NCBI GenBank assembly: GCA_948468985.1
Contig: CAOKKG010000001.1
Coordinates: 57,043 to 121,042, forward strand
Source of the DNA: an uncultured Eubacteriales bacterium
GTDB taxonomy: Bacteria > Bacillota > Clostridia > Christensenellales > Christensenellaceae
Direction: 5' to 3'
Length of the DNA: 64,000 nt
The position numbers and the translations under genes were made by a program. Numbering within the stretch: position 1 is the stretch's first letter; each line of letters begins with the position of its first letter. Below are positions 3,492-22,889 of this stretch, in pieces. The notes below the pieces were generated by a model. It did not search any database. It saw only the letters and a program-made list of their open reading frames with translations, and was not told the origin of the DNA.

Positions 3492-4662
3492 ATGTCTTTC
3501 TTTCGTTGCGCTTCGGCGGCTCGGTCACGAGCGGCGTCGGTCGGAGAATGCGGCAATGCGCCGGATTGACATCCTCTCCATGATAGAACCAGGCGAGCGC
3601 CTGCGGGAGCATGTATTTTAAGAAGGTCAGGCTATGCCCCATCTCGTTGATCATCAAGCGGAAGTCATAACCGCGGTAGTTGAGCGCGCTCGCTACATCG
3701 CTGTCGGCCAGAATCCAGTCGCCGAAGATGATGTCGGCATCGTATTTGCCGACGCACATGCAGGTGCGCAGCGCCTTTTTCTCATCCGTCGTCCGGATGA
3801 TCGACGGCCAAATGTTGCCGCCGCGGATGTTGCCAAAACTGGGGCTACCCGCGATGACATTGCCAAACAGGTGGTTGTCGTACCACGCCACTGCAAACGA
3901 GGCGATGCCGCTCGAGCTCAACCCGACGACGCTGTGCCCTGCGGGGTCCGCGGTAATCTGGTATCCCGCGAGCGCCTTCGGCAGAAATTCCTCTGCCAAA
4001 AAGCGGGAAAACCAATCGCTCACCGTGTCGTATTCCATGCTGCGGTTGGTAATGCCCTTGCCCGTGCCATAGACCGGCTCGCCCGGACCGGGGTATCCCG
4101 GCGTCAAAAACACCGCGACCGTGAGCGGGATCTTGCCGTCCGCGATCAAATTGTCCAATAGGTCGGTCACATTGTCCCGATCTGCGGGCAGGGAAAGCTC
4201 TCCGTCCGCCGGAACCGCGTCCAACAAATCGCTCATGGTGACGCGCTTGCCGTCCTTCGGGCGGATGGGCTCCGTACAGGCCTCGCGCATGTACATCTGC
4301 CCATCCAAAAACAGGATGAGGTCGGCTGGCGTCGAACCGTCGTACTGCGCCGGGGTATACACCCAATATTTGTGCTTGACACCCGGATAAAACAGGCAGT
4401 CCTCCATCGTGTGCCCGACGATGCGCCCGTGCGGGACATCCTCTCTGCGGCGATAGTCCGCGGGCAGCGGGTACAGGTCCTTGTTCCACTCTGCCCGGCC
4501 CATAGCCATCTCGTCCCGTTCATGCCACCCCGTAATCGGATAGTCCAACATGCAGTGGAACGCCTCATAGCTGCTCTTGGGGAGCGTTACCGTGACATAT
4601 TCCTCTTCCGGTTTGTCCGTCCGAGCACAAAGCTGCCAGACCTCGTCTTTCTTTTCTCCCAT
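3490..4662 (-). CDS. Putative esterase / alpha-beta hydrolase (enterochelin-esterase-like)
   Basis: The 390-residue protein has a central GLSSSGIAS element (nucleophile serine in G-x-S-x-G context), a preceding LILFLDGQMY strand with the oxyanion-region Asp-Gly, and a C-terminal NEMGHSLTFLKYMLPQAL carrying the likely catalytic His. This is the arrangement of the Fes/esterase-D family of serine hydrolases. The longer in-frame start at 4710 is rejected because it lies inside the upstream terminator; the ATG at 4662 (MGEKKDEVW) has an upstream AAAGGG. No signal peptide is seen. There are no siderophore genes nearby, so a role in iron release is not supported; a cytoplasmic carbohydrate-ester or peptide esterase is equally possible. 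Confidence 0.75.
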   Translation of the reverse strand: MGEKKDEVWQLCARTDKPEEEYVTVTLPKSSYEAFHCMLDYPITGWHERDEMAMGRAEWNKDLYPLPADYRRREDVPHGRIVGHTMEDCLFYPGVKHKYWVYTPAQYDGSTPADLILFLDGQMYMREACTEPIRPKDGKRVTMSDLLDAVPADGELSLPADRDNVTDLLDNLIADGKIPLTVAVFLTPGYPGPGEPVYGTGKGITNRSMEYDTVSDWFSRFLAEEFLPKALAGYQITADPAGHSVVGLSSSGIASFAVAWYDNHLFGNVIAGSPSFGNIRGGNIWPSIIRTTDEKKALRTCMCVGKYDADIIFGDWILADSDVASALNYRGYDFRLMINEMGHSLTFLKYMLPQALAWFYHGEDVNPAHCRILRPTPLVTEPPKRNERKT

Positions 4663-14525: not shown

Positions 14526-15524
14526 ATGGTACAGTTTGAAGGTTACGAAAGAAGAATTGCGAAAATCGAAAAGTGCCTTGCCGAATACGGATTCTCCTCT
14601 CTGGAAGAGATGAAGGCATATACCGTAGAAAAGGGCCTGGATGTCGACAGCATCGTCCGCTCGATCCAGCCGATCGCGTTTGAAAACGCCGTTTGGGCGT
14701 ATACGCTGGGCGCGGCCATCGCGCTCAAGAAGGGCTGCAAGAAGGCTTCCGACGCCGCAGAGGCGATCGGCATCGGATTGCAGGCATTCTGCATCCCCGG
14801 CTCCGTCGCTGATCAGCGAGAAGTCGGCCTTGGCCACGGCAACCTGGCAGCCATGCTGCTCCGCGAAGAAACGAATTGCTTCTGCTTCCTGGCCGGTCAT
14901 GAATCCTTTGCCGCGGCGGAAGGCGCCATTGGCATCGCCAAGACGGCCAACAAGGTCCGCACGAAACCGCTCCGCGTCATCCTGAACGGCCTGGGCAAGG
15001 ACGCCGCTGCAATGATTTCCCGTATCAACGGATTCACGCATGTGGAAACGGAATATGACTACTATACCGGCGAATTGAAGGTGCTTTGGGAAAAGCCCTA
15101 TTCCAATGGGGAACGCGCGGCCGTCAAGTGCTATGGCGCGGACGATGTCAGCGAGGGTGTGGCGATTATGCGTCACGAAGGCGTTGATGTTTCCATCACC
15201 GGCAACTCCACCAACCCCACCCGCTTCCAGCACCCGGTGGCAGGCACCTACAAAAAATGGGCGATTGAGCACGGCAAGAAGTACTTCTCCGTGGCTTCCG
15301 GCGGCGGCACAGGCAGAACGCTGCACCCCGACAACATGGCGGCCGGCCCGGCTTCCTACGGCATGACGGACACGATGGGCCGCATGCACGGCGATGCGCA
15401 GTTCGCAGGCTCCTCCTCCGTTCCCGCACACGTAGAGATGATGGGTCTCATCGGCATGGGCAACAACCCCATGGTCGGTGCGTCCGTTGCTGTTGCCGTT
15501 GCGGTTGAGCAGGCGATGAAATAA
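14526..15524 (+). CDS. GGGtGRT protein (uncharacterised family), target of the neighbouring integration
   Basis: The 332-residue protein carries the name-giving ASGGGTGRTLHP motif near residues 260-270. Other striking segments are ETNCFCFLAGHESF (two Cys and a His), GHGNLAAMLL, ITGNSTNPTRF and the C-terminal GIGMGNNPMVGA-like repeat of V and A. It is soluble, with no signal peptide or membrane segment. Its function is not established; its consistent partner is the NifU-like scaffold gene just upstream, suggesting a metal-cluster protein. The last 38 codons and stop (15408-15524) are duplicated at 19655-19771, at the far end of an integrated element. Confidence 0.8.
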   Translation: MVQFEGYERRIAKIEKCLAEYGFSSLEEMKAYTVEKGLDVDSIVRSIQPIAFENAVWAYTLGAAIALKKGCKKASDAAEAIGIGLQAFCIPGSVADQREVGLGHGNLAAMLLREETNCFCFLAGHESFAAAEGAIGIAKTANKVRTKPLRVILNGLGKDAAAMISRINGFTHVETEYDYYTGELKVLWEKPYSNGERAAVKCYGADDVSEGVAIMRHEGVDVSITGNSTNPTRFQHPVAGTYKKWAIEHGKKYFSVASGGGTGRTLHPDNMAAGPASYGMTDTMGRMHGDAQFAGSSSVPAHVEMMGLIGMGNNPMVGASVAVAVAVEQAMK

Positions 15525-15628
15525 TCGCATAACAATGCGGTTTTTAGGCATATAAAAGCCAATTCATTTTAGATTTACGGTTAGACACATCATTTGTGCA
15601 AAAATACAGATGATGTGTCTAATTTTTT
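15407..15628 (+). repeat. Left direct repeat (attL-like): GGGtGRT gene end plus terminator
   Basis: It matches 19654-19874 in the same orientation. The first 18 bp (15407-15424) are identical, the next ~100 coding bases are similar with mostly synonymous differences, a ~35-bp segment is diverged, and the last 68 bp (15561-15628) have one mismatch, including 49 identical bases (15580-15628). The repeat covers the last 38 codons of the gene, its stop and the terminator. Confidence 0.85.
15583..15628 (+). terminator. Inverted repeat / terminator after the GGGtGRT gene, likely part of att site
   Basis: The perfect 11-bp inverted repeat AGACACATCAT / ATGATGTGTCT (15583-15593 and 15610-15620) with a 16-nt loop is followed by a T run. 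A further GGACACATCA lies just downstream, so the motif RGACACATCA occurs three times before the recombinase gene, as expected for recombinase binding sites. Confidence 0.6.
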
Positions 15629-15663
15629 GTTTGGACACATCACAGTGATGGGAGCAATCTAAA

Positions 15664-16449
15664 ATGAAGAAAATCCAAATGCTAAAAGAAAAGAATTTGA
15701 CCTTTAAGGATGGGTGCGAAAAATACCTTGACAATTGTAGGCAAAGAAACTTGAGAGAGGGAACAATTCGCCATTATAAGCAGTCTTACACACAGTTTTA
15801 TAAAATCATTCCTCCAGAAATGCCACTCAATGAATTTACAGAAAAGACCTATACTGATTATGTCAAACATCTCACCGAAACGCTGGAAAACGATATAAGC
15901 ATTAACTCCTATCTGCGAGATTTAATTACAACGCTTCATTTTCTTATGAGAGAAGAATATATCTCCCATTTCAAAATGAGAGCAATCAAAGTTGATAAAA
16001 GACCAATTGAAACCTATACTGAGAAAGAATTAACAAAGCTACTGAAAAAGCCCAATATGAAAAAATGTTCGTTTACAGAATACAAGAATTGGGTAATGAC
16101 AAACTTTCTCTTTTCTACCGGCGTAAGGCAGAGAAGTTTACAAAATATCAAGATAAAGGATATAGATTTTGATAACAAAGTTGTATATGTAAACTTCACA
16201 AAAAACAGAAAACCGCTAATTATTCCCCTCAACCAAACTATGGTGCGGATTTTAGAGGAATATTTAACATACAGACAGCACACAAGCACAGAGGAATATT
16301 TGTTCTGTAATGTCTTTGGACAAAAGCTAACCAAATCAACCTCTTATCATATGCTCTATGAATATAATAAATCCAGAGGCGTTAAAACTACTGGAATACA
16401 CCGTTTCCGCCACACATTGGCAAAACAATGGATTATAAATGCTCCTTAA
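15664..16449 (+). pseudogene. Tyrosine recombinase / integrase, truncated at the C-terminus
   Basis: The 261-residue frame has a SAM-like N-terminal core-binding domain (~10-100) and most of the catalytic domain. The first catalytic Arg is in FSTGVRQRSL, the beta-hairpin Lys in FTKNRKPLIIP, and the H-x-x-R pair in GIHRFRHTLAKQW. The frame ends four residues later (IINAP) at the junction with an opposing gene, so the following L-G-H box and the nucleophilic Tyr are missing. A complete enzyme would be expected to continue ~40-60 residues. As read, it cannot cleave DNA. It belongs to an AT-rich element and sits beside the left repeat, the usual place for an integrase. Confidence 0.8.
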
Positions 16450-16621
16450 TCTGTGCCATAATATAGCGATACTTTTCCTCCTTTGGCTTTAAGCCGTTGC
16501 GGTAGTGATATAGCGTTGTATATCCTATTCCTGTGATATTTGCTAATTCAACAATAGGCACTCCCACCAATGGGAAGTATTTTAGTATCTGCTGAAACTC
16601 TTTTAATTCTCTTTCTCTCAT
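16433..16621 (-). CDS. Small helix-turn-helix protein
   Basis: The 62-residue product reads VPIVELANITGIGYTTLYHYRNG in the middle, a clear helix-turn-helix, followed by a basic C-terminus. GGAG lies upstream of the ATG. It converges on and overlaps the truncated recombinase end by 17 bp, marking the likely deletion junction. It may be a control protein of the element or the remnant of a larger one. Confidence 0.5.
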   Translation of the reverse strand: MRERELKEFQQILKYFPLVGVPIVELANITGIGYTTLYHYRNGLKPKEEKYRYIMAQIKEHL

Positions 16622-17202
16622 TTTTTTTAGTCTCCTTTTTCCGTTGTGGCGGAGGGTGCGTTTTGGGAAATTTACTGTTTTTCTTTTTCGATTTCTGCCA
16701 TATCTCCCACATACTCCCCACGAATTATTTTTTCGCGCTTTCCGTTGTTGGGGAGCGCGCTGTTTTGGTTCGTTTTGTTTTTCTTGCTGATTGATATACT
16801 TCTACCAGAGGAACGCCAAAAAGAATAAATCTCTTTGGAGAGTTCCTCCCAACTTCTACCGTCGGAAAACACCTCTTTGCGAACTGATAGGTTTTCGTTC
16901 CTACTGCCTTAAATGACTGTTTAACTCACGCAACCCTTGTTAAACCAGCAATTTCTCCACTCCCAACTTTTAATGGTATATCCCTACCATACAGATTTAG
17001 TTTCTGTTTTGACGTATCAAAAGGGGAAGCAATTTTGCTTCGTTTTGTTTTCACGAATACATTTTCTGCGTTGGCTGTATCAAACCTTATTAACCCTTTG
17101 GTGGCGGTTGTATGCTTTCATTCCCTTTATTCTGTTTTCCTTTCACTGATAAGTAGAGTTATGCTTTGTACTCTCTAAAAAATGGAGACAATTTTTCAAA
17201 TT
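16622..17202. other. Degenerate AT-rich region of the element
   Basis: No intact gene is supported. The minus strand carries fragments with protein-like composition in shifting frames, e.g. a 66-codon frame at 16672-16872 containing FSDGRSWEELSKEIYSFW, preceded by stop-interrupted pieces. This looks like a decayed gene, possibly a replication or mobilisation protein of the element, but the family cannot be identified. Confidence 0.4.
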
Positions 17203-17466
17203 TTATTTGCGATAAAATACCTCTCCAAAGTATTGTTCTTTATGCTGTGGCTCGCTTCCGTCATTGCGGAAGGGCGCAGTAGAAAAAGACAATTCTCCAT
17301 TGTATTTCTCTATGAGATAGCCCAATTTTTTCAGTTTAGAGATTGCGTCATAATATGCCGTCTTTTGAAAGCCTGTAGCACTCTCAAAGGTTTGTTTGGT
17401 TAAGGTGATACATTCCTCGCTTTGACTTGCCAGATAGAGATAAAGGGCAAATTCGCTCATTGTCAT
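17203..17466 (-). CDS. Winged-helix DNA-binding protein (87 residues, possibly a fragment)
   Basis: The product begins MTMSEFALYLYLASQ and contains LTKQTFESATGFQKTAYY followed by ISKLKKLGYLIEKYNG, the helix-turn-helix-wing pattern seen in replication or regulatory proteins of small mobile elements. Its ATG overlaps the stop of the upstream lipoprotein gene (ATGA), so the two are coupled. The wing is followed by only ~20 residues; it may be truncated. Confidence 0.5.
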   Translation of the reverse strand: MTMSEFALYLYLASQSEECITLTKQTFESATGFQKTAYYDAISKLKKLGYLIEKYNGELSFSTAPFRNDGSEPQHKEQYFGEVFYRK

Positions 17467-17834
17467 TGCTTGTATTGCTTCCTGCCATTAAGGTTTGTTT
17501 GTACTTCTGGTATATAATAATCATACCCAACAATAACCGTCAGATCAGAATTACTTGTTGCTGTATTGCTAAATTCCCCTGTAAATATTCCTTGAAGATA
17601 AACCTCATTTGTTTCATCTCCAAAATCATCAACATAGTGAACAATTTGCCAACTTGATGAAGCTTCGGTTTGGGTAGGCTCAACTGTCAGTTCTGGCTTT
17701 TGGTTATCTGTTTCAACTGGCGATGTTTCTGTTGGCTCTGTTGTATTCGATTCTTTTGTCTCTGGCGTTGAAGAACACCCCACAATTCCTAAAACCATTA
17801 TAATGGCTAAAATCCCAATCAATATTTTTTTCAT
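17463..17834 (-). CDS. Small lipoprotein
   Basis: The 123-residue protein has a typical lipoprotein signal: Lys-rich start, hydrophobic stretch and lipobox VGCSS. A Thr/Glu/Pro-rich linker follows, then a beta-rich segment WQIVHYVDDFGDETNEVYLQ and TGEFSNTATSNSDLTV. The latter resembles a recurrent extracytoplasmic domain in clostridial mobile elements. The start is placed at the second Met, 10 bp after AAAGGAG; a GTG two codons earlier is too close to it. Role unknown. Confidence 0.6.
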   Translation of the reverse strand: MKKILIGILAIIMVLGIVGCSSTPETKESNTTEPTETSPVETDNQKPELTVEPTQTEASSSWQIVHYVDDFGDETNEVYLQGIFTGEFSNTATSNSDLTVIVGYDYYIPEVQTNLNGRKQYKQ

Positions 17835-17858
17835 TTTCACTTTGCTCCTTTAATTTAG

Positions 17859-18050
17859 TTATTTCCTTTTAGGTGGAACTGCGTTCCTTGGAATTCTCCA
17901 AGGACTCCCAACGTCATCATGGTCTACACCATCAATTTTTCCCTCTCTACACCATTTAGTAATTGTGTTTTGAGAAACACCCCATAACTTTGAGGCTTCT
18001 TTTGTTCCCATAAAAAAATTCTCGTTTTCGCACAAATTAGTATCTTCCAT
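17859..18050 (-). CDS. Excisionase-like helix-turn-helix protein
   Basis: The 63-residue protein has a MerR-like winged helix: MGTKEASKLWGVSQNTITKWCREGKI, then a short wing with SPWRIPRNAVPP. This is the pattern of Xis or MerR-type excisionases. The start is set at MEDTNLCE, 11 bp after AGGAGGG. It is transcribed divergently from the XRE regulator. In an element with a recombinase it is the natural candidate for the excision factor. Confidence 0.65.
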   Translation of the reverse strand: MEDTNLCENENFFMGTKEASKLWGVSQNTITKWCREGKIDGVDHDDVGSPWRIPRNAVPPKRK

Positions 18051-18074
18051 ATCACTAACGCCCTCCTTTTTATC

Positions 18075-18116
18075 ATTATAAATAACCAAATGACAAGTGT
18101 CAATGTCGTTACGACA
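18075..18116 (-). promoter_or_regulatory. Consensus promoter with two operator-like palindromes
   Basis: Minus strand: TTGACA (18103-18098), 17-bp spacer, TATAAT (18080-18075), a perfect consensus promoter for the Xis-like gene. The palindrome TGACA-AG-TGTCA (18091-18102) overlaps the -35 box, and TGTCGT-T-ACGACA (18104-18116) lies directly upstream of it. They sit between the divergent Xis-like and XRE genes and are likely repressor sites. Confidence 0.65.
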
Positions 18117-18177
18117 GTTTGAAATGGTTTATGCTGTTTGTTGCCTTCAATAAAATTATTATAGGAGGTAACAGAAA

Positions 18178-18405
18178 TTGAAAAATGAATATAAACAGTA
18201 TTATGAAAAGTTTGGTCTTAATGTAGTCTATTATCGCAAGCGTAAAAAACTTACACAGTTACAATTAGCAGAATGTATAGATATATCCAGAAGTCATATA
18301 AGCGCTATTGAGTTAGGGAATATTGGTGTGTCCTTTGATGTGCTTTTTAAAATGTGTGAAGTTCTAGATATTACACCAAAACAACTATTTGATTTTAGAG
18401 ACTAA
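18178..18405 (+). CDS. XRE family transcriptional regulator
   Basis: The 75-residue protein is a single Cro/CI-type helix-turn-helix (residues ~14-68): VVYYRKRKKLTQLQLAECIDIS, then RSHISAIELGNIGVSFDVLFKMCEVLDI. The start codon is TTG, supported by AGGAGG nine bases upstream. It is probably the repressor acting on the palindromes in the divergent promoter region. The WYL regulator starts 17 bp after its stop. Confidence 0.85.
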   Translation: MKNEYKQYYEKFGLNVVYYRKRKKLTQLQLAECIDISRSHISAIELGNIGVSFDVLFKMCEVLDITPKQLFDFRD

Positions 18406-18421
18406 CTCAAAGGAGAACCCA

Positions 18422-19453
18422 ATGCCTCGCACCACATCCCAAAAGAAAAAGCTATTTGCCCTTTATCAAATCCTTTATCAATACACAGACGATAACAACG
18501 GCTTAACAATGACAGAAATCCTCTCAAAGCTTCAAAACAGAGGAATTTTAGCAGAACGGCGCAGTATTTACGACGATATAGAAATTCTTAAGAATGATTT
18601 TGATATAGATATTGAAGCAAGAAAGACAACCACAACTCGCTATCACCTCCAAAGCAGAGAGTTTGAATTAAGCGAACTAAAGCTATTAGTAGATAGCGTT
18701 CAAGCCTCAAAATTTATCACCGAAAAGAAAACATATTCCCTCATCAAAAAGCTGGAAAAGCTATGTAGCAAATACGAAGCACAATCCATTCAAGGGCAAG
18801 TATATCTCACCAACCGCATTAAGAGTATGAACCAGAGTATTTACTACAATACAGGAGACATACACAAAGCCATTACAGAGGGCAAGCAAATTTCCTTTCA
18901 ATACCTTACTTATACTATTGCCAAAGAAGAAGCGTTCCGCAGAGGAGGAGCGCACTATCAAGTTTCGCCCTTTGCGTTAATCTATGCCGAAGAAAATTAC
19001 TATCTGCTTGCCTTTGACAGCAAAACTCAAATATTCAAGCATTACAGAGTAGATAGAATGAAGAACATTCAAGTATCTGCTAATGACAGAGAGGGCGTAG
19101 AGCAATTCAAACAAATAGATATGGCACGCTATACAACCCAAACATTTTCAATGTTCGGCGGAGAAGCGGAAAAGCTAATCCTTGAATTTTCAAATAATTT
19201 GATAGGCGTTGTCATAGACAGGTTTGGCAAAGATATACCTACCCGCAAAACAGACGAAAAACACTTCCAAGTGTCCGTTGATGTTGTGGTGAGCGAACAG
19301 TTTTTCGGTTGGCTCTTTGGTTTAGGAACTGGCGCAAGGATTGTTTCTCCTCAATCGGTGGCGGAACGTATGAGAAAGTCATTGGAAGATGTGAAAAAGA
19401 TTTACGAAGTGGCGGAAAGTTCTCAAAGGTTGTTAAAAGATGCAGGACTTTAA
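18422..19453 (+). CDS. WYL-domain transcriptional regulator (YafY-like)
   Basis: The 343-residue protein has an N-terminal winged helix (residues ~7-60, GLTMTEILSKLQNRGILAERRSIYDDIEIL), a helical linker, a WYL domain (~145-225, KQISFQYLTYT, SPFALIYAEENYYLLAFDS and the Arg pair in HYRVDRMKNI) and a C-terminal WCX extension. WYL domains sense ligands, often nucleic-acid-like, in regulators of mobile elements and defence loci. AAAGGAG upstream fixes the start at MPRTTSQ. It is AT-rich like the rest of the element and is its last intact gene before the right repeat. Confidence 0.85.
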   Translation: MPRTTSQKKKLFALYQILYQYTDDNNGLTMTEILSKLQNRGILAERRSIYDDIEILKNDFDIDIEARKTTTTRYHLQSREFELSELKLLVDSVQASKFITEKKTYSLIKKLEKLCSKYEAQSIQGQVYLTNRIKSMNQSIYYNTGDIHKAITEGKQISFQYLTYTIAKEEAFRRGGAHYQVSPFALIYAEENYYLLAFDSKTQIFKHYRVDRMKNIQVSANDREGVEQFKQIDMARYTTQTFSMFGGEAEKLILEFSNNLIGVVIDRFGKDIPTRKTDEKHFQVSVDVVVSEQFFGWLFGLGTGARIVSPQSVAERMRKSLEDVKKIYEVAESSQRLLKDAGL

Positions 19454-19653
19454 TCAAAAGTTGCCAAAACATATTACCTTTCTATACGGAAATATTAAAA
19501 TTTAGCAGAATGTCATTGCAAAAAAGGTATTGATTTACCCGTAAAACAGAGGTAATATTAAATTACGAAAAGCACAGTAAATGTGTGCTGTAAATTAAAA
19601 AATGATGGGACTTACCTTTTGAAAAAGCCCATAAAATAGCGGTTTTCTTGCTT
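19454..19653. other. AT-rich tail of the element
   Basis: About 200 bp without a gene. It contains a short inverted repeat GCACA-GTAAA-TGTGTGC, no T-run terminator, and ends at the right direct repeat. Confidence 0.4.
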
Positions 19654-19874
19654 AGGCTCCTCCTCCGTTCCGGCTCACGTAGAGATGATGGGACTTATAG
19701 GAATGGGCAACAACCCCATGGTCGGCGCTTCCGTTGCGGTTGCCGTCGCGGTGGAAGAAGCGATGAAATAAGGCTTAACAAAGCCGTTTTTCAGCAAGTA
19801 AAAAATAATTCATTTTAGATTTACTGTTAGACACATCATTTGTGCAAAAATACAGATGATGTGTCTAATTTTTT
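19654..19874 (+). repeat. Right direct repeat (attR-like): second copy of the GGGtGRT gene end
   Basis: This copy encodes in frame the last 38 codons of the GGGtGRT protein (19655-19771), from GSSSVPAHVEMMGLIGMGN to the stop. It differs from the intact gene only at Gln to Glu near the end plus synonymous changes. It is followed by the same 68-bp terminator block (19807-19874). There is no upstream part and no start codon, so it is a remnant, not a gene. Confidence 0.85.
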
Positions 19875-20066
19875 ATATTTTAACACAAAACTGCGATGCA
19901 ACCGCTACCTCTAACCGTAAAATCCGGTAAAAACATCTTGCATAGAACAGAGATTCTGTATACCCTTTTGAAAATTACTGCTTTTCGCATATCAATCTCC
20001 ATAGAAATTTTTAATCTATATCCAGTCTTAAAAACTCTATACAAACCATGTACGGCCTATATATTC

Positions 20067-20108
20067 TTGAATTCCTTCACGCTTTTTAGTATAATAAGTA
20101 TACTAAAA
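20067..20108 (+). promoter_or_regulatory. Promoter with overlapping palindromic operator for the M3 peptidase
   Basis: TTGAAT (20067-20072), 17-bp spacer, TATAAT (20090-20095). The perfect 10-bp inverted repeat TTTTAGTATA / TATACTAAAA (20084-20093 and 20099-20108) covers the -10 box, so a bound protein would block transcription. The leader to the start codon is ~110 nt. Confidence 0.65.
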
Positions 20109-20209
20109 TTATTTGTGCGCAATCATTCGCCATAAAACTACAGTCTCTACAAAGGGCGCTTCCCATACGATCAGAACCGATACAGATGCGTGCCAAAAGG
20201 AATTTTTGT

Positions 20210-21919
20210 ATGATGCGAAAAAACAAAAAACAATTATTATGTGTTCTATGCGCGCTCTCTCTCTTCCTGTTCTCCAGTTGTAAAATTTTATCACCTTTCC
20301 CGAAAACATGGAAGGGCCCGACAACGGAACACTCTTCTTCGCAGACGGACAGAGAGCCGTATACCAAGCGTCATTATTCCGGGGATATTGAACATTTTGA
20401 TATCCCTCTCGAAGAGCGTCCCAGAGATTCTTTTGATAAACGTGCTTTTCTTGTCGCTTTTTTTGAGCTTAAGGACATTATACAATCTGCGTATGATGAA
20501 GCAAATGAAGCAAAGCTTCTTGCGCTCTATGAGAAAATAAAGTCTGGCCTGTTAAATCTTAAAACAGATGTCAGCCTTGCGAAGTATGATTATTATCTTG
20601 ATGTCACTAATCAGGAAAATGCCGGATTCTATGCCGACAAAGAGGAACTTTACAACAGTTATTTTGCCAAAAGCCTTTCTCTTTTTAAAACCGTTTTCTC
20701 AACAGAATATGCTGATGCCTTCCGTTCCCATGTCGGAGACTGGTGCGCGGACACCTTTGCAGCTGGTAGCCGTATTCTCTCGGAGGATCAAAAGGCTCTA
20801 AAAAATAAAATCAACGAGCTTAAGCAGGAATATGACACTCTGATTTTTCAAAGCACAGACAGCGCGGCACTCAAGGAGCTGTATTTAGAGCTTGTCAATG
20901 CCAACAATGAGTACGCCCGTCTGTGCGGTTATAATAGCTATGTGGACTATGCCTATGCTGAAGTGTTTGCACGGGATTATACGGCGGAGAATATCCAAGT
21001 TATAGAAGATGAGATTATAGACGAGTTTCTCCCGCTTTACACTGCATATACGGCTTATATAACTGATAATGGAAGCGTTTTTGATGCCTATCAGGAAAAC
21101 CACGACAGTGGAGAAGAGATGTTCACCAGACTAAAAAACTGCATCAAACATATATCCCCTGAACTTAAGGAATCTCTAGATCACCTGCTGCAAAATATTC
21201 TATATGATGCAGATGAATCAGATACAAAGCTTTTCAACTCCTGTTTTACACAGGAGATATATAGTTATAACGACGCATACATTTTCATCTCACCGAACCA
21301 TACTGTTTCCGATTATATAACGGTTCTTCATGAATTTGGACACTACAACCGCGCCTATTACACTGCCACAAGTAATCCTTTCCGTCCGAAAGGAACTGAT
21401 GACATCGAAGAGATCATGTCTCAGGGACTCCAACTGCTTTGTTATGATTATTATGGAGATTATCATGAGAAATACGGATCCGCACTTGCCGCGCAAACAA
21501 TCTTTCAGAAGATGACTGCCATTCTTGACGGCTTCGCTGTGAATGAAGCCGAATACCGTTCCTATACAACACCCGATTTGACCATTGAAAAACTCGATGC
21601 AATCTGGGCAGAAACTTTTGAAAAATACGGAAGGCCGTTTGAGGACACCTCTTGGACACAGATATCCCAAGTATTTCAAAAACCGTTTTACTATATCAGC
21701 TATGCAACATCCGGCCTTGCTTCTTTTGAGATATTCGCAGAATCGAGAAAGGATTTTAATATAGGAATCGAAAAGTATATGACGATTACCTCGCTTCCAA
21801 AAGGTACTAAATTTATTGAAGCGTTAAACATAGCAGAGCTTCAAAACTTTTTTGAAAAAGGAGTAATCTCAGAGCTATCAGACATTCTGGCGGATGCATT
21901 GGGCGTCCAAAAGAAATAA
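20210..21919 (+). CDS. Lipoprotein M3-family metallopeptidase (oligoendopeptidase F-like)
   Basis: The 569-residue protein begins with a lipoprotein signal ending in the lipobox FSSC, so it is secreted and lipid-anchored. The zinc site HEFGH lies at about residue 375 (TVLHEFGHYNRAYY), with the downstream Glu ligand probably in DIEEIMSQGLQLL. The mostly helical remainder, with repeated SYVDYAYAEVFARDYT-like segments, fits the thimet/oligoendopeptidase fold. M3 enzymes are usually cytoplasmic; an exported lipoprotein form is less common. AGGA lies upstream of a double ATG (20210/20213). Its base composition is AT-richer than the chromosome, suggesting acquisition with or beside the element. Confidence 0.85.
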   Translation: MMRKNKKQLLCVLCALSLFLFSSCKILSPFPKTWKGPTTEHSSSQTDREPYTKRHYSGDIEHFDIPLEERPRDSFDKRAFLVAFFELKDIIQSAYDEANEAKLLALYEKIKSGLLNLKTDVSLAKYDYYLDVTNQENAGFYADKEELYNSYFAKSLSLFKTVFSTEYADAFRSHVGDWCADTFAAGSRILSEDQKALKNKINELKQEYDTLIFQSTDSAALKELYLELVNANNEYARLCGYNSYVDYAYAEVFARDYTAENIQVIEDEIIDEFLPLYTAYTAYITDNGSVFDAYQENHDSGEEMFTRLKNCIKHISPELKESLDHLLQNILYDADESDTKLFNSCFTQEIYSYNDAYIFISPNHTVSDYITVLHEFGHYNRAYYTATSNPFRPKGTDDIEEIMSQGLQLLCYDYYGDYHEKYGSALAAQTIFQKMTAILDGFAVNEAEYRSYTTPDLTIEKLDAIWAETFEKYGRPFEDTSWTQISQVFQKPFYYISYATSGLASFEIFAESRKDFNIGIEKYMTITSLPKGTKFIEALNIAELQNFFEKGVISELSDILADALGVQKK

Positions 21920-21931
21920 AGGTAGATTGAG

Positions 21932-21966
21932 GCACAAAAGATGGATGATATGTCCGTCTTTTGTGC
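21932..21966. repeat. Inverted repeat after the M3 peptidase
   Basis: Perfect 10-bp arms GCACAAAAGA / TCTTTTGTGC with a 15-nt loop, followed on the plus strand by A rather than T residues, so it is not a canonical intrinsic terminator. Confidence 0.5.
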
Positions 21967-21992
21967 AAAAAACTCCCGTAGACTTTATAGGC

Positions 21993-22232
21993 CTATTGAT
22001 TCGTTTTTCTTTTTATATAATTATAGTTATTATATGAATTTGAGATAGCCTTGAGGTACAATTCCAACGCTGTCGTATATCTTTTTATTTCACTAGGCGC
22101 ATAATCAATGGATGCGCCTTTCCTTTTCCCCTGTTTTGAATGACAAGAGGTTATTCTTGTGGAGCTATTCGATATAGCGGTTCCGTTTTCATTGACCAAG
22201 TCAATCGTTCTTCCCCTATTTTTTGCCAGCAA
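21993..22232 (-). other. Possible gene remnant in an AT-rich gap
   Basis: A 79-codon minus-strand frame contains GKRKGASIDYAPSEIKRYTT and a Tyr/Asn-rich tail. Composition is protein-like but there is no convincing ribosome site and no family is recognised. The rest of the 21.97-22.42 kb gap shows nothing else; it may be decayed mobile DNA. Confidence 0.2.
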
Positions 22233-22427
22233 TCATAAATTCATCTACACTTTTATAAAAATGTCGTTTATCTTCAGCCTACCTTACTGCAATAAAAATC
22301 TCATATATCCGTTCTTTCGCAAAGATGCCAACACAAGAATTATATTCATCCAGCCAAGTTGAACAAAAAAGAATTTTCGAAAAATAGTCCCTTCTTTTTC
22401 TGTTTTGTAAAGTGTCCCCCTTCTCCC

Positions 22428-22456
22428 TTGCGGTAAACTTCCTTTTCGCGTATAAT
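22428..22456 (+). promoter_or_regulatory. Putative sigma-A promoter
   Basis: TTGCGG (22428-22433), 17-bp spacer, TATAAT (22451-22456), ahead of the zinc-ribbon gene. The GC-rich chromosomal composition resumes about here. Confidence 0.7.
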
Positions 22457-22496
22457 ACGAACAGAAATTTCCACAAACCAGGTTTGGAGGATGGAT

Positions 22497-22889
22497 ATGA
22501 ATCATTTGAAATGTTCGTATTGCGGATGCATTTTTGATGCCGATCTGAAACGCTGCCCCGATTGCGGCACCAAGGTGAAGCGGCGCGACGCCGAGCAATA
22601 CTACACCGGGCCGCTGGACCTCAAGACGGTAATGACCGCATGCAGCGTTCCCGAAAAGGACCTTCTCTGTGCCATTTTGGACGCGGAACAGATCCCCTAC
22701 CTCCTGGACTTCCCGGAGGGCGGCGTGTCCTCCATCCTGGGCGACACGGCTTCTCAGCTCATCCATATTCAGGTCAGAGAGTCCGACTTTGCGCGGGCAC
22801 AGGCGCTGCTCCAGGAGGCAGCGGAGGAGGGAGAGGAGATCGATTGGGACACGATTGATGTCGGCGAGCCGGAGGACGAAGACGAGTGA
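22497..22889 (+). CDS. Zinc-ribbon protein with DUF2007-like C-terminal domain
   Basis: The 130-residue protein starts with a zinc ribbon (CSYCGCIFDADLKRCPDCG: two C-x-x-C knuckles), a short linker and a DUF2007-like signal-transducing domain in which an ATAC-V-x-E-x-D-L-like strand leads to ILDAEQIPYLLDF. It ends in a strongly acidic tail. The start is placed at the second ATG, six bases after GGAGG; the first ATG directly abuts that site. The role is unknown; the family is thought to act as a small regulatory or folding adaptor. Confidence 0.7.
   Translation: MNHLKCSYCGCIFDADLKRCPDCGTKVKRRDAEQYYTGPLDLKTVMTACSVPEKDLLCAILDAEQIPYLLDFPEGGVSSILGDTASQLIHIQVRESDFARAQALLQEAAEEGEEIDWDTIDVGEPEDEDE

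Follow-up and report, generated by a model that had tools for sequence, protein, structure and literature searches.

Organization of the GGGtGRT locus

The window analysed here is a stretch of 64,000 nucleotides (nt) from an uncultured member of the Christensenellaceae (assembly GCA_948468985.1, contig CAOKKG010000001.1, positions 57,043 to 121,042 of the forward strand), and it contains a gene of the GGGtGRT family whose 3' end is present twice, with AT-rich DNA and a damaged tyrosine integrase gene between the copies. The central features are listed here, with lengths of protein products in amino acids (aa).

14526..15524, + strand: GGGtGRT gene, the target; full-length frame of 332 aa (PF14057, 651.9 bits, residues 4-330 of 332, cut-off 27)
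15407..15628, + strand: gene-end copy 1, with the last 38 codons, stop codon and hairpin; putative left attachment region, attL (direct repeat, 88%)
15435..15455, + strand: putative crossover core GAGATGATGGGTCTCATCGGC, codons EMMGLIG, with the dyad GATGA-N6-TCATC (left edges of displaced copies; conserved stretch)
15581..15622, + strand: hairpin TTAGACACATC-loop-GATGTGTCTAA followed by a T-run; likely terminator and possible integrase-binding repeat (fold -25.9 kcal/mol, z -7.5)
15664..16449, + strand: tyrosine integrase, 3'-truncated, 261 aa, with neither the GHSS histidine nor the catalytic tyrosine (PF00589, 8e-24; alignment)
19654..19874, + strand: gene-end copy 2 with its own hairpin (19827-19868); putative border of units A and B (direct repeat)

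The two gene-end copies (15407-15628 and 19654-19874) lie about 4.25 kb apart in direct orientation. They align by blastn as one match of 222 nt (87.8% identity, E 1e-75), and a repeat finder reports two in-register families, 15407-15524/19654-19771 (118 nt, 88%) and 15527-15628/19773-19874 (102 nt, 89%), both with a spacing of 4246-4247. Copy 2 consists of the last 38 codons, the stop codon and the hairpin, without the gene body; a first-pass annotation made from the letters alone had described this direct repeat of codons, stop and terminator, and both searches agree with it. The target frame is uninterrupted and the duplicated target end flanks the insert. We consider it very probable that this is a decayed integrative element that entered by site-specific recombination at the 3' end of the GGGtGRT gene, replacing the gene end. 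That the 3' end is the attachment site and the gene is kept intact had been proposed in the same annotation, and is strongly supported by the association of an integrase clade with this target, by integrase-free ends in related genomes and by the silent divergence of the copies.

The window integrase starts 140 nt 3' of the GGGtGRT stop codon and matches positions 4-139 of the 172 in the PF00589 profile (84.8 bits, cut-off 27.1). It ends soon after the HxxRH motif, and the histidine of GHSS and the tyrosine are present in all 13 aligned relatives; with an integrase that lacks the catalytic tyrosine, the window element is likely to be immobile. It is not an integron-type (IntI) integrase by TIGR02249 (30.6 bits against a cut-off of 265). 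The window integrase has a single match in its own genome (91 contigs, 92% complete), and collections of plasmid and phage records contain one match each, both about 29% identical.

A clade of integrases at the GGGtGRT gene

Relatives of the window integrase were sought in one genome per species across 84,980 species with six peptide patterns, a scan that detects close relatives only, and 17 loci (L numbers; genomes have G numbers) encode one with 61-93% identity. At one of these, L057, the sequence begins inside the integrase and has no upstream side to read; a GGGtGRT gene or end copy lies upstream at all 16 testable loci, within 2.2 kb, and at 14 of them within about 220 nt, with the integrase start 100-220 nt away. 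Within the same order, a threshold of 1e-40 gives matches in four of 396 genomes: G000, G004 and G009, where they are at GGGtGRT, and G246, whose two integrase copies (41% and 37% identical) have no GGGtGRT end on the stretches fetched. A sample of the class, 391 Clostridia genomes of which 191 contain GGGtGRT, has matches at 1e-60 in 17 genomes and 19 places. The seven strongest (L209-L215, including G000 and G009) are at GGGtGRT; none of the 12 weaker ones (L216-L227) is, and nine of these sit about 100-190 nt 3' of a tRNA gene.

In a tree of 40 integrases the 24 rows located at GGGtGRT and two viral contigs that start at the integrase form one clade (support 100/99), and the closest row outside it is L216, downstream of a tRNA-Leu gene. 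The integrase of the viral contig L208 is identical in protein sequence to that of G557, which is located at GGGtGRT. We infer that the target changed from tRNA genes to GGGtGRT; the tree is midpoint-rooted, and its long outside branches leave the direction unsupported. A protein search with the G009 integrase returned 1113 homologues with no gene context, and these are not used as evidence. Other elements at the same gene end had been suggested as a check on the first proposal, and the same integrase clade is indeed there in many genera.

Integrases broken at this site occur in several lineages (L015, which is contig C6 of G004, L021, L040 and L058). The breaks include one after residue 235 beside an LPXTG-like open reading frame (ORF) in G004, one at the N-terminus in G009, frameshifts in G015, and a division into two ORFs in L058. 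A tyrosine integrase of another type (Phage_int_SAM_3; L229:5176-6677), with only short matches to the GGGtGRT clade, follows the second end copy in G505, and a 45% identical relative of it in G641 (L246) is convergent with the GGGtGRT gene, its 3' end lying 169 nt from the stop codon. Integrases of this type were found in three of 291 genomes, in G624 on a different contig from the GGGtGRT gene; this gene end may be a target for a second type of integrase as well.

Silent divergence of the gene-end copies

Over the last 30 codons the window copies differ at 12 nt, 11 of which are third codon positions (binomial 5e-5 against one third). Gene ends compared with other copies in 11 genomes or contigs have 109 of 147 differences at third positions; when G472 is set aside, a decayed pair that has an indel and was compared ungapped, the count is 92 of 103 in ten loci. 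These comparisons share gene ends, so that not all are independent, and the G004 copies are on different contigs. A copy with no gene body cannot keep its reading by selection in place, so that, to judge from this pattern, both window copies once functioned as ends of a gene, which is what elements carrying ends from other genomes would lead one to expect. The DNA after the stop codon is 93% identical over 60 nt to that of G009, a member of another genus, whereas identity to G002, G005 and G006 of the same genus is at most 65% over the 29-31 nt that align.

Proposed crossover site and integration

The displaced copies start at GARATGATGGG or up to about 6 bases before it in L045, L054 (two copies), L048, L049 (copy 2), L058, G603, G505 (copy 2), G411 and G412; the likeness extends further to the left of the core in three cases (the window, G004 and copy 3 of L049), and in G472 the copy has decayed. 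We considered the left edge of the window repeat (15407) as the crossover point and rejected it, given where displaced copies elsewhere mostly start. The crossover is predicted to lie in a dyad of about 20 nt in the codons EMMGLIG, 30 codons before the stop, with GARATGATGGGNCTNATCGG as the proposed crossover stretch. Dyads such as GATGA-N6-TCATC are of the kind used by tyrosine recombinases. Across eight hairpin-less GGGtGRT genes, the 24-nt windows at 904-906 that span GAGATGATGGGCCTCATC tie with those at 931-933 for the highest conservation; the two adjacent Met codons constrain variation of the core, and this may be why it serves as a target.

We propose that a tyrosine integrase would recombine the attachment site of the element with the last codons of GGGtGRT, which would fuse the host gene body with the last codons, stop and hairpin that the element brings and leave the previous gene end beyond the insert. 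Further insertions at that core would stack units in tandem, each border between them marked by a copy of the gene end. The window would then hold unit A (15.4-19.65 kb), which has lost the integrase end and is likely immobile, and a putative unit B (19.65 to about 22.5 kb) with no integrase. Integrase-free GGGtGRT ends are present in other species of the genus, and hairpin-free ends too in related genomes. These ends are candidates for the insert-free locus that the first-pass annotation suggested seeking, and none comes from a strain of the same species. Congener ends without an insert are likewise available for G505, in G550 and G590. In the sister genome G004, contig C6 has the order element right end, gene end, integrase, as in a tandem or a circle junction.

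Extent of the foreign-like stretch and other genes

The GC content is 0.32-0.40 between the copies, compared with 0.52-0.60 to the left, and is 0.36-0.43 onward to 22500; synteny with G002, an integrase-free genome of the same genus, restarts at about 22491. The foreign-like stretch is therefore about 7 kb long and takes in an M3-peptidase-like gene to the right of copy 2. AT-rich DNA does lie between the copies, as noted in the first-pass annotation, with the amendment that low GC runs past 19874 to about 22.49 kb; the element boundary that had been set at 19874 would move to that same right edge. Copy 2 was rejected as a pristine host end because of its element-type hairpin; it likely marks a second, older unit, and the DNA at 19875-22490 is probably that of a second unit from which the integrase and the last gene end have been lost. 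The mechanism first suggested is supported as regards site-specific integration and needs revision as to the age of the right-hand copy. The other genes in this region are as follows.

16433..16621, - strand: small ORF of 62 aa, convergent with the integrase and overlapping its broken end; no family (ORF list; Pfam/NCBIfam)
17203..17466, - strand: ORF of 87 aa with a weak match to an MAGa4850-family protein of integrative and conjugative elements (ICEs) (NCBIfam, 28.7 bits, cut-off 55)
17463..17840, - strand: lipoprotein-like ORF of 125 aa; NCBIfam matches weak and below cut-off (ORF list)
17859..18089, - strand: HTH_17, excisionase-like protein, under the NCBIfam cut-off for 'excise' (PF12728, 1.2e-9)
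18178..18405, + strand: XRE-type regulator, HTH_3 (PF01381, 4.5e-12)
18389..19453, + strand: WYL/WCX regulator (PF13280, 3e-11; PF25583)
20186..21919, + strand: M3-oligoendopeptidase-like gene of 577 aa in the AT-rich stretch; possible cargo of an older unit (TIGR02289, 115.9 bits, cut-off 442; no Pfam match; GC)

The Xis-like, XRE and WYL genes reported earlier between the copies are thus found as ORFs with Pfam matches, as is the recombinase, with the correction that the latter is truncated and lacks the GHSS histidine and the catalytic tyrosine. Relaxase and conjugation genes are absent from the Pfam and NCBIfam matches of the window ORFs tested (some short ORFs fall outside the test), and so are phage structural genes. 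In G002 and G014 the gene that follows GGGtGRT was considered as cargo and rejected; both genomes share an ORF of 526 aa in the same place (76% DNA identity), by eye a putative glucose-6-phosphate isomerase.

The hairpin after the stop codon

Element-type ends have GACACATCAT-loop-ATGATGTGTC and a T-run downstream of the stop codon. This hairpin is present 3' of the GGGtGRT end in 15 of the 16 loci L043-L058 (L057 being the one that begins inside the integrase), and as these loci were found by their integrase the count avoids the circularity of selection by a hairpin pattern. The integrase of G557 is 50% identical, and the arms of the hairpin there are different. The hairpin pattern matches nine sites in eight of 18 family genomes, all directly 3' of a GGGtGRT end, with no control matches; in the class sample it is present in 30 of 391 genomes and the reversed control in four. 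Thirty class-sample hairpin places were given a locus, of which 15 are at a GGGtGRT end and 15 are not, most of the latter with other spacers; G496:C79 is a further hairpin place at GGGtGRT, by coordinates. Because the pattern fixes GACACAT and ATGTGTC, pairs 2-8 are invariant by selection in the alignment, which holds the 30 of 39 distinct hairpins that are 38 nt long and whose sequences are related. The outermost pair is A-U in 19, G-C in 10 and G-U in one; the inner pairs vary, and the inner five fail in 4-19 of the 30 rows. The covariation score and the share of paired cells are above those of all 500 shuffles, and two other measures were reached by 53 and 215 of the 500.

The hairpin arm ATGATGTGTC resembles the core ATGATGGGTC. 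The best or tied-best match of the arm within the gene is at positions 911-917, the core, in 20 of 26 loci with an element-type hairpin (counted by hand, in related loci that are not independent tests), and the loci where it misses the core are L047, L050, L052, L053, L058 and G505. For nine other hairpins (G557, G014, G010, G011, G012, G550, G471, G003 and G001) the core is not among the up to three tied places listed; G002, with GACACATC arms and no integrase, belongs to neither group and also misses the core. In G659 (L242) a hairpin that the pattern does not match lies 56 nt after the GGGtGRT stop in the same layout, and its arms GTCCCATCATT/AATGATGGGAC are nearly a copy of the core; the best gene match of AATGATGGGAC, 9 of 11, is again at the core.

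A comparable relationship is seen at tRNA genes. At nine of 10 tRNA loci the best 10-mer match of the tRNA to the spacer between target and integrase is in the anticodon arm, alone or tied, and for six (L059, L218-L221 and L223, of which L219-L221 share a tRNA type) such a match is rare in shuffles (at most 5 of 100). The shuffle test is not significant for L216 (22/100), L217 (14/100) and L225 (97/100), and L222 failed it (100/100). A tRNA-Ser locus provides an example of a spacer repeat that resembles the anticodon arm of its target, CACACGATT...AATCGTGTG. These sequences suggest that the hairpin and spacer repeats are putative binding sites of the integrase.

Alternative explanations

If the gene end had simply been duplicated locally, or by an unequal crossover, and the AT-rich genes between the copies had nothing to do with it, a direct repeat of one gene's end at 88% identity would be accounted for, and the broken integrase leaves no activity visible in the window. 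Against this reading are the near confinement of the differences to third positions although copy 2 has no gene body, DNA 3' of the stop that is closer to another genus than to its own, and the presence of the same integrase clade at the same gene end elsewhere. Tandem duplication, which the first-pass annotation had named, together with presence of the 4.25 kb in all related genomes, as the finding that would overturn its proposal, is ruled out by the third-position pattern; copies that differ almost only at silent sites, with the integrase association, argue that local duplication as sole cause is already refuted, and we regard this explanation as barely credible. A different possibility is that the copies are scars of an island kept by homologous recombination between gene ends on larger transferred DNA, with the integrase a passenger. 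Units without an integrase do exist (the first unit of L045, G472 and unit 1 of G505), yet in 14 of 16 loci the integrase starts at a distance of 100-220 nt from the end of the gene, as is usual for attL, and across many loci the codons at which displaced copies start are nearly the same; we find this explanation very improbable.

The hairpin, rather than being borne by the element, might be native to the GGGtGRT gene as its own terminator or regulatory site and merely be used by the integrase. It is present without an integrase in G002, G008, G014 and G017, and in G505 it is preceded by a congener-like flank at both the proximal and the distal copy. Of the 17 GGGtGRT ends known in the family, however, nine are without it; in L058 and L054 the distal copies have no hairpin and are flanked differently on the 3' side; and in several of the relatives that target tRNA genes the corresponding position holds a repeat similar to the relative's own target. 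A native origin of the hairpin thus seems unlikely to us.

Several observations weigh against site-specific integration as we have described it. No third gene end was found in 21800-22700, and copy 2, having an element-type hairpin, is not the original host end. Two distal copies (L054 and G505) start to the right of the proposed core, and the 24 nt that start exactly at the core rank 52 of 996 in conservation. We found no two strains of a single species that differ in the presence of the element, so that the crossover remains a predicted one. In G505 the first 107 nt or so beyond the stop of the proximal end are still congener-like; in G557, whose integrase is at GGGtGRT, no second end was found in the 37 kb fetched; and in L048 and L052 the distance from gene end to integrase is 1-2.1 kb.

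Arrays and cargo at GGGtGRT ends

Several contigs carry more than one gene end: five are on JAFTPF010000011 (L045 and L054), three each in L049 and G505, and two each in L058, G603, G411, G412, G472, L048 and the window. Among the cargo carried between ends, L045 has a TIR protein, L058 has Fic together with a resolvase, L049 a resolvase as well as an ABC transporter, L054 WYL, and G472 PBECR4 (read in L079); a Polbeta/HepT-like pair lies to the right of the second end in G472. There is no integrase in the TIR unit of L045 or in the PBECR4 unit of G472. The viral contig IMGVR_UViG_3300018878_002442 (L206) has two end copies in succession, each with an integrase of this clade after it, and the ORFs before the end copies are, as we read them by eye, presumably phage structural genes; phage-like and non-phage units thus share the site. 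L207, a contig of the sister clade, has terminase and portal genes.

A broader proposal that would connect these observations is a cassette-array system in which GGGtGRT ends act as a landing pad, derived from a tRNA-targeting integrase that met an anticodon-stem-like dyad in EMMGLIG. Each unit would carry the last codons and a hairpin with arms that copy a core half-site, the hairpin being both the new terminator of the host gene and a putative recombinase binding site; the integrase family would write its target into a repeat beside its own gene, making targets readable from sequence; and units without an integrase, such as those with TIR and PBECR4, would be mobilised in trans, building up defence-like cargo downstream of an Fe-S-associated gene. 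Taken jointly, these parts form a tentative possibility and not the outcome we would expect.

Relation to known elements

SCCmec-type islands at rlmH form stacked units bounded by copies of the gene's 3' end, some of them without a recombinase. The GGGtGRT arrays share this organization and differ in that SCCmec uses serine recombinases and a much shorter gene-end repeat. The tRNA-targeting relatives (L059, L216-L223 and L225) have integrases 34-42% identical and the same layout of target end, repeat and integrase, with a tRNA gene as the target. Another likeness is to prophage e14 of Escherichia coli, which, according to PMC6379469, integrates in a protein-coding gene, supplies the end of icd and leaves a 163-bp copy of the gene end on the far side; e14 is one element in one gene of one host lineage, whereas the GGGtGRT clade spans many genera, forms arrays and shares a hairpin after the stop. 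Many islands are described as restoring their target in PMC12884075. Among 73 streptococcal elements with tyrosine integrases, 30 are in the 3' ends of housekeeping genes and nine in tRNA genes, and half use 3' ends of one or the other kind, with repeats of 12-54 bp (PMC4701971). These streptococcal ICEs (at rpsI, guaA, lysS and others) likewise have a tyrosine integrase beside the repeat and a protein-gene 3' end as target; the window repeat, in contrast, is about 220 bp and imperfect, and no conjugation gene is present among the Pfam/NCBIfam matches of the window ORFs tested.

The first-pass annotation had called the target unusual, and by the counts in PMC4701971 the 3' ends of protein genes are not rare as targets; what holds is that GGGtGRT itself as an integration target was not found in the titles and abstract beginnings of the literature searched on integrase targets and core/arm repeats, and island databases may list the site. 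Nine papers that mention GGGtGRT do not deal with integration in their titles or abstract beginnings. We regard the window element as what is left of an element of known kind. Its target, which we did not find described, is used by a dedicated integrase clade, and elements stack there in arrays. The repeat, the association of clade and target, the silent divergence and the arrays are direct observations; the exact crossover, the terminator and binding roles of the hairpin, the immobility of the window copy and unit B are deduced. The GGGtGRT gene, conserved and uncharacterised, is an integration hot spot, and a second GGGtGRT end or the GACACATC hairpin can serve as a marker for finding islands. 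A whole integrase clade has apparently switched from tRNA genes to one protein-coding gene, and the resemblance of repeat to target, which both the GGGtGRT clade and several of its tRNA-targeting relatives show, offers a rule, open to testing, that would predict where an integrase inserts.

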